64,000 bases of DNA from Streptomyces sp. NBC_00078 (lineage in GTDB: Bacteria; Actinomycetota; Actinomycetes; Streptomycetales; Streptomycetaceae): contig NZ_JAPELX010000001.1 in assembly GCF_026343335.1 (NCBI RefSeq), positions 1,674,001 through 1,738,000 on the forward strand, written 5' to 3'. The notes under the pieces are model-generated. The model was not told the origin of the DNA and ran no database searches. It worked only from the letters and a program-made list of their open reading frames with translations. This document shows, one piece after another, positions 10,253 to 14,445 of this stretch; the stretch's first letter is position 1; each line of letters starts with the position of its first letter. Position numbers and translations under genes: made by a program.

Positions 10253-11455
10253 CTAGAAGTCGTCGAAGCGTCGGCGCCGGCCGCGCCACAGGACGACCGC
10301 CGCGACGAGCAGGACCCCGCCGAGGCTGCCCGCGAGTGGGGCGGCCCAGCCGCTGGTGTCGTCATCGGACTCGGCGGCGTCGGGGCCGGAGCCGAAGTAC
10401 CTGTCGCCGTACGACGCCGCCTGCAGGCCCTCCGGCTTGAGGCGGCCGGCCGCCTTGATGGCGGCGGCCGGGTCGATGAGGCCGAAGCCGCGCGAGTCGT
10501 CGCGGCCGCCGGCGGGGGCGTTGCGCGCGGTGTCCTCGAGGAGCTGCTTGATCTGGGCGGGGGTCAGCCCCGGGTGGGCGGCCTTGATGAGGGCCACCGC
10601 GCCCGAGACGAACGCCGAGGCGGCGCTGGTCCCCCACCCCTCGTAGTACTTGTGGTCGGGGTCGGCGATGACGATGTCGACGCCGGGAGCGCTGACGGTG
10701 GCGTACCAGCGGCGGGTGGAGAACGAGGCGCGGGTGCCGAAGCGGTCGACGGCGGTCGCGGCGATGACGCCCGGGTAGGCGGCCGGAAAGGAGACGTGGT
10801 CGCCTCTGCCGCCGCCGTTGCCCGCCGAGGCGACGATGGCCACGCCCTTCTTGAGGGCGTACTGGACGGCCTCGTCCTCGGCGGGCTCGGGGTGCGCGGA
10901 GGCGGAGTCGTCGCCGAGCGAGAGGTTGATGACGTCGGCCCCGTGGTCGGCGGCCCAGCGGATGCCTTCGGCGAGGGCGTTGCCACGGGAGGAGCGGGCC
11001 TTGCTGCGGGCCGAGTCGCCGTCCTCCAGGATCACGCGGACGGGGAGGACCTTGGCCTCGGGGGCGATGCCCATGATCCCCTCGTCGTCGCCGGGGCCGT
11101 GTCCGTGCCCGGCGATGATCCCGGCCATGGCGGTCCCGTGCCGGGCCCACGCCCGGTCCCCCTGCCTTGCCCCGAAGCCGATCATGTCCTTGGTGGGCAG
11201 GACGTTCCCGACGAGGTCGGGATGGTCGGCCTCGACGCCGGTGTCGAGGACGGCGACGGTGATGCCCTTGCCCTTGGTGGTCTGCCAGGCCTGCTGGGTG
11301 TGCATGGCGTCGAGGGCCCACTGCTGGGCACGTATGCCGTCGGCGTGCGCGACGCTGGCCGGGACGAGGGCGAGAGAGGCGGCGAGGAGGACGCTCACCG
11401 CTCCGGCACGGTGCCTGGCTCCGTTGCTGCTCTTCGCTCGGATACGGCGCTTCAC
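10253..11455 (-). CDS. mycosin-like subtilisin serine protease (S8)
   Basis: This 400-aa protease has a signal peptide (residues about 15-40, VSVLLAASLALVPASVAHA), an S8 catalytic domain with Asp71 (VAVLDTG), His106 (RHGTAMAGI) and Ser277 (GTSAASAFVSG) plus the oxyanion Asn region (VASAGNGGG), and a C-terminal membrane helix (LAGSLGGVLLVAAVVLW) followed by an Arg-rich tail. This is the membrane-anchored mycosin (MycP) architecture used with type VII secretion. The GTG start overlaps the preceding gene's stop (GTGA). No ESX genes are nearby. Confidence 0.88.
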   Translation of the reverse strand: MKRRIRAKSSNGARHRAGAVSVLLAASLALVPASVAHADGIRAQQWALDAMHTQQAWQTTKGKGITVAVLDTGVEADHPDLVGNVLPTKDMIGFGARQGDRAWARHGTAMAGIIAGHGHGPGDDEGIMGIAPEAKVLPVRVILEDGDSARSKARSSRGNALAEGIRWAADHGADVINLSLGDDSASAHPEPAEDEAVQYALKKGVAIVASAGNGGGRGDHVSFPAAYPGVIAATAVDRFGTRASFSTRRWYATVSAPGVDIVIADPDHKYYEGWGTSAASAFVSGAVALIKAAHPGLTPAQIKQLLEDTARNAPAGGRDDSRGFGLIDPAAAIKAAGRLKPEGLQAASYGDRYFGSGPDAAESDDDTSGWAAPLAGSLGGVLLVAAVVLWRGRRRRFDDF

Positions 11456-14445
11456 GAGGGCTTCTCCGTGGGCGAGGTGACGTCTTTGCGCAGGGCCCGT
11501 TCGATGCGGTCGGCGAGGCCCTGGGCCTCGTTGCCGAGGCCGGCCTGGGCGGGGGCCGAAGTGGCACCGGACTGGGTGGCCTGCTCGGCGGAGAGCGGGG
11601 TGTCGACGCTGCGGCCGTCGGCCCAGCCGGAGACGGCGTAGACGACGACCGGGGCATCGGTGAGCACGGAGATGGTCCACGAGGCGCGCTGCCTGGTGCC
11701 GAAGCGGGCGGCGGCGGTGTCCTTCGCCGCGTAGGCGCGGGGCATGAGGTCGGTGCGGCTGGCGAGGCCCTCCTGCTGGAAGCGCTTGGCGAGGGCGTCC
11801 ATGGATGCGGCGTCGGCGTCGGTGAACAGGAGGCCGACGGTGGTGACGAAGCTCTGCGTGGCGTCGGTGTAGGTGGCGCGGAGGAGACGTTGGCAGCCGA
11901 CCGGTGCGAGGGCCTTCTTGAGCAGCGGGTCGAAGGCGTCCTTGCATCCGCTGTCGGGTGCGACGGCGACGCGCGTCCAGGTCCGGTCGGCGCCGCCGGG
12001 GCCGGCGCCGGTGCCCTCCACGGTCGGGGGGAACAAACGGTCCACGGGCACGCTGTGCCACAGACTTCCAGCCGCTGCGAACGTGTCCCGCGCGCCGCCG
12101 TCGCCCGAGTCCCCGACCAGCCAGCTCCCGGTCACGGCACCGCCGATGAGCCCGACGCCGAGCACGAGGCAGGCGGCGACCGCGGCGGTACGCGGCCGTA
12201 CCCGCCGAGCGAGCGGCCGCGGCCGGGCGTGCTCGTCGTACCCCTCGGGCTCCGCGAACGACACAACGGGCCGCCCGGCCCCCAGCGTCCCACCGGGCAC
12301 CGTCGGAGCACTCCAGGAGAGAGCGGGATCGGGCCCCACGCCCACACCGGGGCCCGGACGCTGTGACGCGTTGGTCGGGGTGGAGCTCGGGCGGGCGGCC
12401 GGCATGGGCGGTGCGGCCGAGTCGGGCCGCGGGCTCGTTGCCGACGGCGGGGTGGCGCCGGGGCGCCGAAGAGGAGCAGTGGCCGCCGAGCCGGACGTGG
12501 AGATGGGCGGCGTGGCCGAACCTGGCCGACGGCCGGGATCGGCGGGCGCGGAGGAGGGGCGGGCGCCCGGCATCGGCGGCACGGCGGAGTCAGTGTGCCG
12601 AACGGGATCGGCGGGGGCGGGAGTTGGCGTCCCCGGCGCTGTGGCCGAAGGGGCGGCGGCATCCGGTCTCGCCGAGGCGGCCGAACCGGCCGAACCGGGG
12701 CGGAAACCCGGACGGGACTCCGGCAGGAGTGGGGCGGTCGCACCCGGGCGACGGAGGGGGTGGGCCACCGTGGGAGTGCGGCCTGCGTCCGTCACGGCGG
12801 GCGGGACGGCCGGACGGGCAGGTGCCTCGGGCAGGGTCTCAGGGGTGATGGGCCGCAGGCGCCTGGTGGTCTCCTGGGCCGCTTCCGCGGGGGCGCTCGT
12901 GGGGCGGGGCGGCGGCGTGGGGCGGTGGCTCGGGCGTGGCGGTACGACGCCGCCCGGCGTGCTCGTACCGGCGGCGCCCCGCGCGCTCGTACCGGCCGTG
13001 GCCTGCGGACTCGTACCGGAGACGCCGTGCACGGTGGTGTCGGCGGCGGCCTGTGTGGGCGTGGCCTCGGCGGTCCGCCCGGTCGTAGCGGCGCCGTCGC
13101 TGCCTGTCTCGCCGCCGGTCGTCGGAGGGGCGTCAGGGAAACGGGCCGAGGCCCGCGGTGGGGGCGCGGGCAGCGGACCGGCGTCTCGTGCGGAGGGCAC
13201 GCGGAGGTTCGGGAAGTGGGGACGCTTGTCCGGGGAGCCGGCCGGGATACCGTCCGGGTCGGCCGCGGGGCTTGGGCGGCGCGACGAGTCCGCGGTGCTG
13301 TCGGAACGCAGCCCGGATGCCGAGCCCGGTTCCGTCCGGGGCCGGCGCGTCGTGGGCTGGCTCTCCGTGGCCCGGCTCTCCGTGGCCCGGCTCCGCTCGG
13401 CCTGACCGCCTCGCGCAGACGCCGGCAGTCCGTCTCCCTCAGCTGCACCGACACCCCGAGGTACCGAACCCTCGACAGCGGCACTGTCCTGCCGGGACGA
13501 CGAAACCCCGTCGGCGGCACTGCCCTGCCGGGACGACGAAACCCCGTCGGCGGCACTGTCCCGTCGGGACGACGACGCCCGGTCGGTCTCGCTGCCTCGC
13601 CAGGACGACGAACCCTTGTCGTCGGCCGCACTGTCCTGCCGGGACGACGAAACCCCGTCGGCGGCACTGTCCCGTCGGGACGACGACGCCCGGTCGGTCT
13701 CGCTGCCTCGCCAGGACGACGAACCCTTGTCGTCGGCCGCACTGCCGTCTCGAAGCGGGGAGCCTTCGTCTCCGTCACCGACGCCCCACGACGACCAACT
13801 CTCGCCGGCCCGACGGCCCTGTCGGAGCGTGGCACCCCCGTCGGAGCCACTATCGCCCTGCGACGACGAACCCACCTCCGCCTCACCACCGAACCGGGAC
13901 GGCCGGCCGCCCTCGGCCCCGCCACCCGGCCGGAGCGCCGTACCTCCGCTGGAGCGATCACTGCCCCGCGACGACGAACCCACCTCCGCCTCACCACCGA
14001 ACCGGGACGACCAGCCGTCGTCACCGTCACCGTCGACGGCCGGCCCGGCGGTGTCGGCCTCGGTGACCGGTCGGGACGACGAGACGCCGTCGGAGCCACT
14101 GCCCGTCCGGGGCGTCGGGGCTCCATCGGCTTCGCCGCCGCCCCATGGCCACGGCTCCCCGTCGCCTCCACGGTCGCTCCACGGCGACCAGCCCTCGTTC
14201 GGGGCCTCGCGCTCGTTGCGAGAGGGGGCGGGGGTGGGGCGGCGGGGGGCGAACGCGTTGAAGGGTTCCGAGCCGTGCCAGGGGGACCACGCGCCGCCGG
14301 ACTCGGCCGTCGAGTCCGGCGTGGGGTCGGTGTCGGGCGGGGGCGCGGTGGTCTCCTGCGGCTGCCGGTCCGCCGGACCCCGGCCGACCGTCGGGGGCTG
14401 GGGCGGGCGCGGTGGGATGGAGGCGTGCTGCGCGTCCGTGCTCAT
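11452..14445 (-). CDS. low-complexity membrane protein upstream of the mycosin
   Basis: The 997-aa protein has about 740 residues of Pro/Ser/Ala/Gly/Asp-rich low complexity with many SSSR-type repeats, then one transmembrane helix (about 751-774, AAVAACLVLGVGLIGGAVTGSWL) and a C-terminal domain of about 215 residues (DRTWTRVAVAPDSGCKDAFDPLL...), predicted outside. It is translationally coupled (GTGA) to the mycosin gene, so the two probably act together; the C-terminal domain may be a partner or substrate. I do not recognise the family. The ATG at 14445 follows a GGGGGG stretch. Adjacent reading frames are also open over the repeat region because of extreme GC content. Confidence 0.75.
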   Translation of the reverse strand: MSTDAQHASIPPRPPQPPTVGRGPADRQPQETTAPPPDTDPTPDSTAESGGAWSPWHGSEPFNAFAPRRPTPAPSRNEREAPNEGWSPWSDRGGDGEPWPWGGGEADGAPTPRTGSGSDGVSSSRPVTEADTAGPAVDGDGDDGWSSRFGGEAEVGSSSRGSDRSSGGTALRPGGGAEGGRPSRFGGEAEVGSSSQGDSGSDGGATLRQGRRAGESWSSWGVGDGDEGSPLRDGSAADDKGSSSWRGSETDRASSSRRDSAADGVSSSRQDSAADDKGSSSWRGSETDRASSSRRDSAADGVSSSRQGSAADGVSSSRQDSAAVEGSVPRGVGAAEGDGLPASARGGQAERSRATESRATESQPTTRRPRTEPGSASGLRSDSTADSSRRPSPAADPDGIPAGSPDKRPHFPNLRVPSARDAGPLPAPPPRASARFPDAPPTTGGETGSDGAATTGRTAEATPTQAAADTTVHGVSGTSPQATAGTSARGAAGTSTPGGVVPPRPSHRPTPPPRPTSAPAEAAQETTRRLRPITPETLPEAPARPAVPPAVTDAGRTPTVAHPLRRPGATAPLLPESRPGFRPGSAGSAASARPDAAAPSATAPGTPTPAPADPVRHTDSAVPPMPGARPSSAPADPGRRPGSATPPISTSGSAATAPLRRPGATPPSATSPRPDSAAPPMPAARPSSTPTNASQRPGPGVGVGPDPALSWSAPTVPGGTLGAGRPVVSFAEPEGYDEHARPRPLARRVRPRTAAVAACLVLGVGLIGGAVTGSWLVGDSGDGGARDTFAAAGSLWHSVPVDRLFPPTVEGTGAGPGGADRTWTRVAVAPDSGCKDAFDPLLKKALAPVGCQRLLRATYTDATQSFVTTVGLLFTDADAASMDALAKRFQQEGLASRTDLMPRAYAAKDTAAARFGTRQRASWTISVLTDAPVVVYAVSGWADGRSVDTPLSAEQATQSGATSAPAQAGLGNEAQGLADRIERALRKDVTSPTEKPS
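13517..13738. repeat. tandem 111-bp duplication (two copies)
   Basis: Two consecutive 111-bp units, 13517-13627 and 13628-13738, appear to differ at one base (position 7 of the unit). Each consists of a 36-bp and a 75-bp subunit; an extra 36-bp copy lies at 13481-13516. The unit length is 37 codons, so the frame of the low-complexity protein is kept and SSSR-(Q/R)-DSAAD peptides are repeated. Confidence 0.9.

Follow-up and report, generated by a model that had tools for sequence, protein, structure and literature searches.

Work on mycosins has treated them as essential components of type VII secretion, and in ESX mycosins cysteines form disulphides. EccB spans the membrane once and has a large outer part, and in the ESX loci of Streptomyces the eccB and mycosin genes adjoin. 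Earlier work describes stabilisation of the ESX membrane complex by the mycosin and cleavage of EspB by MycP1 (PMC5156307), and ESX-4 is described as the ancestral cluster with eccB, eccD, mycP and rv3446c (PMC4791881). In Streptomyces, Sfla_1620, near bldB, has been presented as a type VII-associated mycosin (PMC4239341), and the deletion of two membrane S8 genes has been reported in S. lividans, one of which is termed a T7SS mycosin (SLIV_10025; PMC5994538). Like the protease reported here, Sfla_1620 and SLIV_10025 are mycosin-family membrane proteases, but they are described as type VII-associated. By what we take to be the S. lividans numbering, the locus numbers of the deleted genes differ from the expected place of the present pair. 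In the part of the literature on mycosins and type VII secretion that was accessible, with subscription papers mostly outside it, we found no description of a pair such as the one described below.

The window, a stretch of 64,000 nucleotides from the genome of Streptomyces sp. NBC_00078, carries a mycosin-family S8 protease gene (400 aa, 10253..11455) and, upstream of it, a gene for a 997-aa membrane protein (11452..14445), hereafter the partner. Both genes and all of their features discussed here lie on the minus strand. The GTG start of the protease gene sits within the partner stop codon, forming a GTGA overlap (11452..11455), and a GGAG stretch is found just 5' of this start. At the loci of the best 80 of 461 confirmed relatives (79 Streptomyces and one Kitasatospora), the partner stop reads ATGA in 49 cases, GTGA in 30 and CTGA in one. 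A scan for promoters and terminators found nothing. A longer listed frame (10253-12061, 602 aa) merely extends back into the upstream gene.

The protease scores 329.1 bits against the NCBIfam model TIGR03921 (T7SS mycosin), over the curated cut-off of 278.75, and its sole Pfam domain is PF00082 (184.7 bits), with no subtilisin propeptide domain found. A signal peptide is predicted at residues 1-38 from hydropathy and sequence (11342..11455), with putative cleavage at its AHA end, and hydropathy further predicts a C-terminal membrane helix at about residues 371-390, followed by a basic tail (10286..10345). A position check and alignment place the catalytic triad at D71, H106 and S277 and the oxyanion residue at N213 (10625..11245). 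All four residues are invariant among 60 aligned protease sequences, an alignment for which 77 of 80 named loci were usable and 59 named loci were taken in, and the 30 partner-linked mycosins compared below all keep them too. The window protease has no cysteine and hence lacks those that form the ESX-mycosin disulphides. A search of PDB sequences with the protease returned generic subtilisins on top and no mycosin among the top 60. This ranking is not diagnostic, because a true ESX mycosin also draws generic subtilisins first, with MycP1 (4kb5) ranking only 60th. The original prediction had given these coordinates, this strand, the GTGA overlap and the 997-aa partner, and had ascribed full mycosin architecture to the protease; the sequence confirms the former, and the signal peptide, S8 triad, C-terminal helix and TIGR03921 score bear out the latter. 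The protease thus resembles the ESX mycosins (MycP) in having an S8 domain without a Pfam-detected propeptide, a signal peptide, a C-terminal helix and a TIGR03921 score over the cut-off; unlike them, it has its own membrane partner gene, belongs to a separate clade and is encoded in a genome without EccB or EccD matches. The arrangement also recalls MycP-EccB, in that a mycosin gene adjoins a gene whose single-pass product has a large outer part, but the partner gives no EccB match.

By composition, residues 1-740 of the partner (12226..14445) are predicted to form a disordered cytosolic segment, with 553 residues being P/A/S/G/R/T and 71 being I/L/V/F/Y/W/M/C. Repeat analysis finds 111-bp (and 36-bp) tandem repeats within it (13478..13795), which are the likely source of its variation in length. 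A single membrane helix follows at about residues 753-775 (12121..12189, hydropathy), and the arginines that precede it suggest, by the usual charge rule, an N-in, C-out orientation. Beyond the helix lies a predicted folded outer domain (residues 806-992, 11470..12030) with two conserved cysteines, C834 and C851 (11893..11946), which may form a disulphide. These cysteines are invariant in 34/34 sequences of a nearer alignment (A1; 33 of 60 genus loci plus the window protein) and in 16/16 of a broader one. The conserved face of the domain includes W51, R80 and an LRATYxD motif, in the numbering of A1. Searches of the window partner against Pfam and NCBIfam found no domain anywhere, the cytosolic part included, and the Pfam scan found no kinase domain. 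Among 89 partner orthologs, the distance from the first possible start to the helix ranges from 24 to 1376 aa (median 417), values that are upper bounds because the first start is the longest choice. The conserved function of the partner therefore does not lie in the disordered part; what is conserved is the helix and about 220 outer residues. The predicted layout of a 740-residue disordered N-terminal part, one helix and an outer domain is upheld by composition and hydropathy. The description of the partner as giant and of low complexity suits this species and does not carry over to the family, and the weight placed on its long disordered part was mistaken.

The outer domain is probably PknH_C-like, a likeness that falls short of proven membership in PknH_C. 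We modelled the helix and outer domain with AlphaFold2 from an alignment of 60 of the 80 named loci, with L131 dropped for a stop codon in its stretch, and obtained a moderate model with a mean pLDDT of 72, rising to 83-90 across model residues 91-200; in the four further models the mean ranged from 71 down to 41. The outer domains of PknH (4esq) and TiME are the top structural matches to this model, and the partner differs from PknH in having no kinase. VIA-align places PknH 4esq first (Z 8.3, with 144 residues at an rmsd of 4.1), a score to be read against a moderate model and the fact that best Z values of 7-8 are common, followed by TiME (7cu8/7cu9, Z 6.8/6.4) and START-type folds (at most 5.6). 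With Foldseek, no match falls below E 0.05, the TiME outer domain comes first and that of PknH second, with E 0.07 for 4esq. The Pfam model PF14032 (PknH_C) matches three partner-family members in family f15, one of them over the cut-off of 27: L288, which scores 28.9 bits when searched genome-wide and 30.3 bits as the excised domain. L293 reaches 25.6 bits, below the cut-off; these two, of the three matches, were checked and each adjoins a mycosin. No Pfam family matches the window outer domain up to E 10, and PF14032 has no match in the own genome or among the 34 nearer and 16 broader aligned sequences. An hhalign profile comparison between the outer domain and PknH_C sequences from family f4, made with shallow alignments, fails at a probability of 0.2-0.3 percent, and the best match of the outer-domain profile among PDB sequences has an E value of 0.97. 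We know of no ligand for PknH_C-like outer domains, which the pair may extend to a protease context.

The original prediction had also noted that ESX genes are missing from the window, in which a Pfam scan covered part of the genes. This absence extends genome-wide for EccB, EccD and a second mycosin, in a search that comprised these three and WXG100. A profile search for EccB gave no match in the whole genome, and the search is able to see it, since 178 of the 199 genus genomes give an EccB match. Likewise EccD gave no match, while it was found in 6/6 ESX-positive control genomes with best scores of 290-320 bits each. The window protease is the sole mycosin over the TIGR03921 cut-off in this genome, and three WXG100 matches all lie more than 1.4 Mb away. 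EccB is missing from 21 genomes of the genus, 20 of them identified directly from the search and one (G196) by elimination. Exactly one mycosin over the cut-off is present in each of 20 of these 21 genomes (the own genome and 19 others), the exception being G050 (82% complete, 1770 contigs), which has none. Second, lesser mycosin matches occur in two of the EccB-less genomes, at 270.6 bits (G182, below the cut-off) and at 221 bits with an internal stop (G009), and are perhaps remnants. EccD-type matches of 44-74 bits (Pfam cut-off 30) appear in 6/21 EccB-less genomes, that of G196 spanning the domain only in part; they may represent other transporters, because two ESX-positive controls also carry such weak matches (74 and 79 bits).

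The outer domain itself is found in 187 of the 199 genomes: 167/178 with EccB and 20/21 without it. Twelve genomes have no detectable outer domain (G050, G079, G112 and nine others); most of these are fragmented or incomplete, and some, for example G116 and G194, are rated nearly complete. The pair was predicted to stand alone, and its retention in 20/21 genomes without EccB agrees with this. The TIGR03921 family model is labelled 'type VII secretion-associated', a name that misleads in Streptomyces, because the clade is kept in EccB-less genomes. Among 60 spread-out genus loci found through the partner, an S8 gene lies next to it on the same strand in 58, the exceptions being L075, whose partner is truncated at the C-terminus, and L078, which is a remote paralog located elsewhere. 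The genome with the shortened partner gene (G012; L075, L081:4205-4954) has no mycosin within the 9-kb stretch, and judging from this case partner and mycosin seem to decay together. A mycosin follows the partner in 80/80 named loci, again the best 80 of 461 confirmed relatives.

We also counted in the opposite direction, taking the 150 top-scoring mycosins over the cut-off among the matches listed; this count is free of selection for the partner because it starts from the mycosin. Among these 150, 68 are partner-linked, 77 occur with ESX genes, two lie at contig ends and three have neither. A partner lies upstream within 1000 bases of 67 of these 150 listed mycosins, and EccB within 1000 bases of 35. 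The first-pass adjacency comparison used 77 partner rows and 36 EccB rows, and the remaining 48 of the 150 were then checked by locus. In 36 of these there are one partner (L265), one mycosin of the same type at a contig end (L257), 32 cases of EccB, one mycosin with WXG100 genes (L237) and one at the start of a contig, accompanied solely by another mycosin (L245); the remaining 12 comprise eight with EccB, one with EccC and three with neither. Scored against the window protease, L257 reaches 590 bits and L265 510 bits, and the rest of the 36 reach at most 212; of the 35 mycosins with adjacent EccB, only some were scored in this way. Because of the low scores of the rest, a close protease relative without the partner is seen among these 36 only at a contig end (L257). 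The coupling originally proposed is thus found in 68 of the 150 mycosins among the matches listed, and in the co-occurrence comparison that the prediction had called for, the two genes are not often apart, the only other close protease relative fetched (590 bits) being the one at the contig end.

Across the class, the outer domain is detected in 80/393 genomes and 19/122 genera, and 44 of the 80 genomes belong to the own genus. One row of the class search (L205, E 2.4e-5) was checked at its locus and the domain match was not recovered. No single frame combining the partner domain with a mycosin was seen in the loci checked. We scanned 17 proteins that neighbour second pairs or pairs of other families; they have nothing in common with the window neighbourhood and little with one another, apart from two second pairs in Streptomyces (L201 and L202) that share MeaB and an amino-acid permease. 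No neighbour gene is common to all lineages among the 17 scanned, and the pair itself is constant.

In an unrooted tree of 55 chosen mycosins, a branch with 100/99 support separates the 30 partner-linked ones, drawn from three families, from 17 ESX-linked mycosins and eight others. The triad is intact in 30/30 partner-linked, 17/17 ESX-linked and 7/8 other mycosins, the eighth being a fragment. Cysteines in the protease domain number 0-2 in the 30 partner-linked mycosins, 2-4 in the 17/17 ESX-linked ones and 0-3 in the eight others. The main groups of the partner tree (n = 29, the partner of L201 being left out under the pairing rule) match those of the mycosin tree. Three loci of family f15 (L195, L207 and L210) carry tandem partner-mycosin-partner-mycosin arrays; the pairs were duplicated as pairs, since in both trees each array half clusters with its counterparts. 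Evolutionary rates of partner and protease co-vary over 47 loci (partial r 0.374), and this is not specific to the pair, because the protease and a neighbouring alanine-racemase-like gene give 0.353, and two further neighbours, an SDR and a beta-lactamase-like gene, 0.525.

The pair is probably a separate cell-surface protease unit, because it is co-inherited even in species without the ESX machine. We give about an even chance to the fuller reading that the two proteins act together as a single protease unit on the outer surface, with the partner docking or regulating the protease. A shared, coupled message would yield both proteins, and these would reside in the cytoplasmic membrane and expose their folded parts on the outside, the protease anchored through its C-terminal helix and the partner through its N-terminal helix. 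The PknH_C-like outer domain would act as a dedicated docking or regulatory subunit of the protease, occupying the position that belongs to EccB in the case of ESX mycosins, and the partner could hold the protease, gate it or present substrates to it for limited surface proteolysis. Dependence appears to be one-sided, since remote copies of the domain lack mycosins and a window-type mycosin without the domain is seen only at a contig end, and the subunit model is therefore favoured over the partner being a mere substrate. Counting against the subunit model are the rate co-variation shared with neighbours, the G012 locus, where a shortened partner has no mycosin within 9 kb, and the negative hhalign comparison with PknH_C. 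That the outer domain is a substrate, clipped or shed by the mycosin at the surface much as MycP1 acts on EspB, is possible if somewhat doubtful: the partner-type mycosin is closely paired, its triad is intact and both folded parts are predicted to lie outside, but the helix-domain linker and the C-terminal tail are variable, with no conserved motif visible in the 34-sequence alignment, and proteins with the partner domain occur remotely with no mycosin nearby. Co-transcription alone would likewise be able to preserve the pairing, and overlapping genes are common in actinobacteria. Together with the non-specific rate co-variation, this would suit two independent envelope housekeeping proteins behind one promoter, a reading we regard as unlikely given that the scanned neighbours vary by lineage while the pair stays constant and that tandem pairs were duplicated together.

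The original prediction spoke of regulated proteolysis, and signalling through the cytosolic part does not fit a segment that shrinks to 24 aa and has no known domain here. In PknH, the kinase lies inside, followed by a helix and the outer domain, and the single-pass topology of the partner, with a cytosolic N-terminus and an outer domain, follows the same order. Nonetheless, it is very unlikely that cleavage outside alters a long cytosolic segment active inside the cell, since this segment ranges from 24 to 1376 aa in the 89 orthologs and, in the window protein, matches nothing in Pfam or NCBIfam; unlike anti-sigma-type regulated-proteolysis proteins, the partner has no conserved cytosolic effector domain. 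Signalling via the long N-terminus was accordingly rejected for the non-conservation of the segment. Membership in TIGR03921, the second pairs near ESX genes at L203 and L080 and the place of EccC and EccE outside the genome search would be compatible with a mycosin that serves a type VII system encoded elsewhere. This we consider most improbable: neither EccB nor EccD is matched in the own genome, 20 of the 21 genomes lacking EccB retain the pair, and the ESX-linked mycosins fall in a clade of their own. Since the clade persists in genomes without EccB, a mycosin can here be studied apart from ESX in safe laboratory strains, and its one-to-one partner offers a direct route to mycosin binding, control and cleavage targets. 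We speculate, and only tentatively, that mycosins are not inherently T7SS proteins: an actinobacterial branch might be an obligate two-protein surface protease, switched by its PknH-like sensor in response to an envelope ligand, and T7SS may have recruited one such protease, with EccB replacing the sensor.

Copies of the outer domain also occur away from the pair. The own genome encodes one, with an N-terminal extension and a helix, at G000:C1:5598968-5600104 (L194:8969-10105), and remote copies of this kind are located at the rplM site in nine loci (L194, L082, L198, L199, L204, L206, L211, L212 and L213). The copy lies between truA and rplM in eight of the nine, with an ABC-F-like gene, so named from its sequence, intervening at this site in L082; in L213 it lies beside rplM at a contig start. 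Three loci of family f15 (L198, L199 and L204) have two remote copies in tandem, one frame reaching up to 1277 aa. No mycosin was found near the remote copies within the stretches of the nine loci. The interval between truA and rplM is presumably the position of ESX-4 in mycobacteria.

Second partner-mycosin pairs were observed in some Streptomyces, at L203:8484-10774 and L080:14559-16746, each sharing its stretch with EccB, two WXG100 genes and ESX mycosins; the second partner frame of L080 is cut short. The rplM-site copies and these second pairs near ESX genes hint at an old link between the domain and T7SS, and give only a hint. Searches of the remote paralogs and second partners against the NCBIfam T7SS families returned nothing meaningful. 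Streptomyces mycosins of a third kind, whose stretches contain no EccB and no partner, were seen at L221:11365-12705, L222:2343-3740 and L224:2801-4156, and fall on the ESX side of the tree together with the second mycosin of the ESX cluster L079. Finally, at L229:747-3779 (G082) a single frame of 1011 aa without stops spans EccB and an ESX mycosin; the end of EccB can be made out in a second frame as well, so that this may represent either a fusion or a frameshift.
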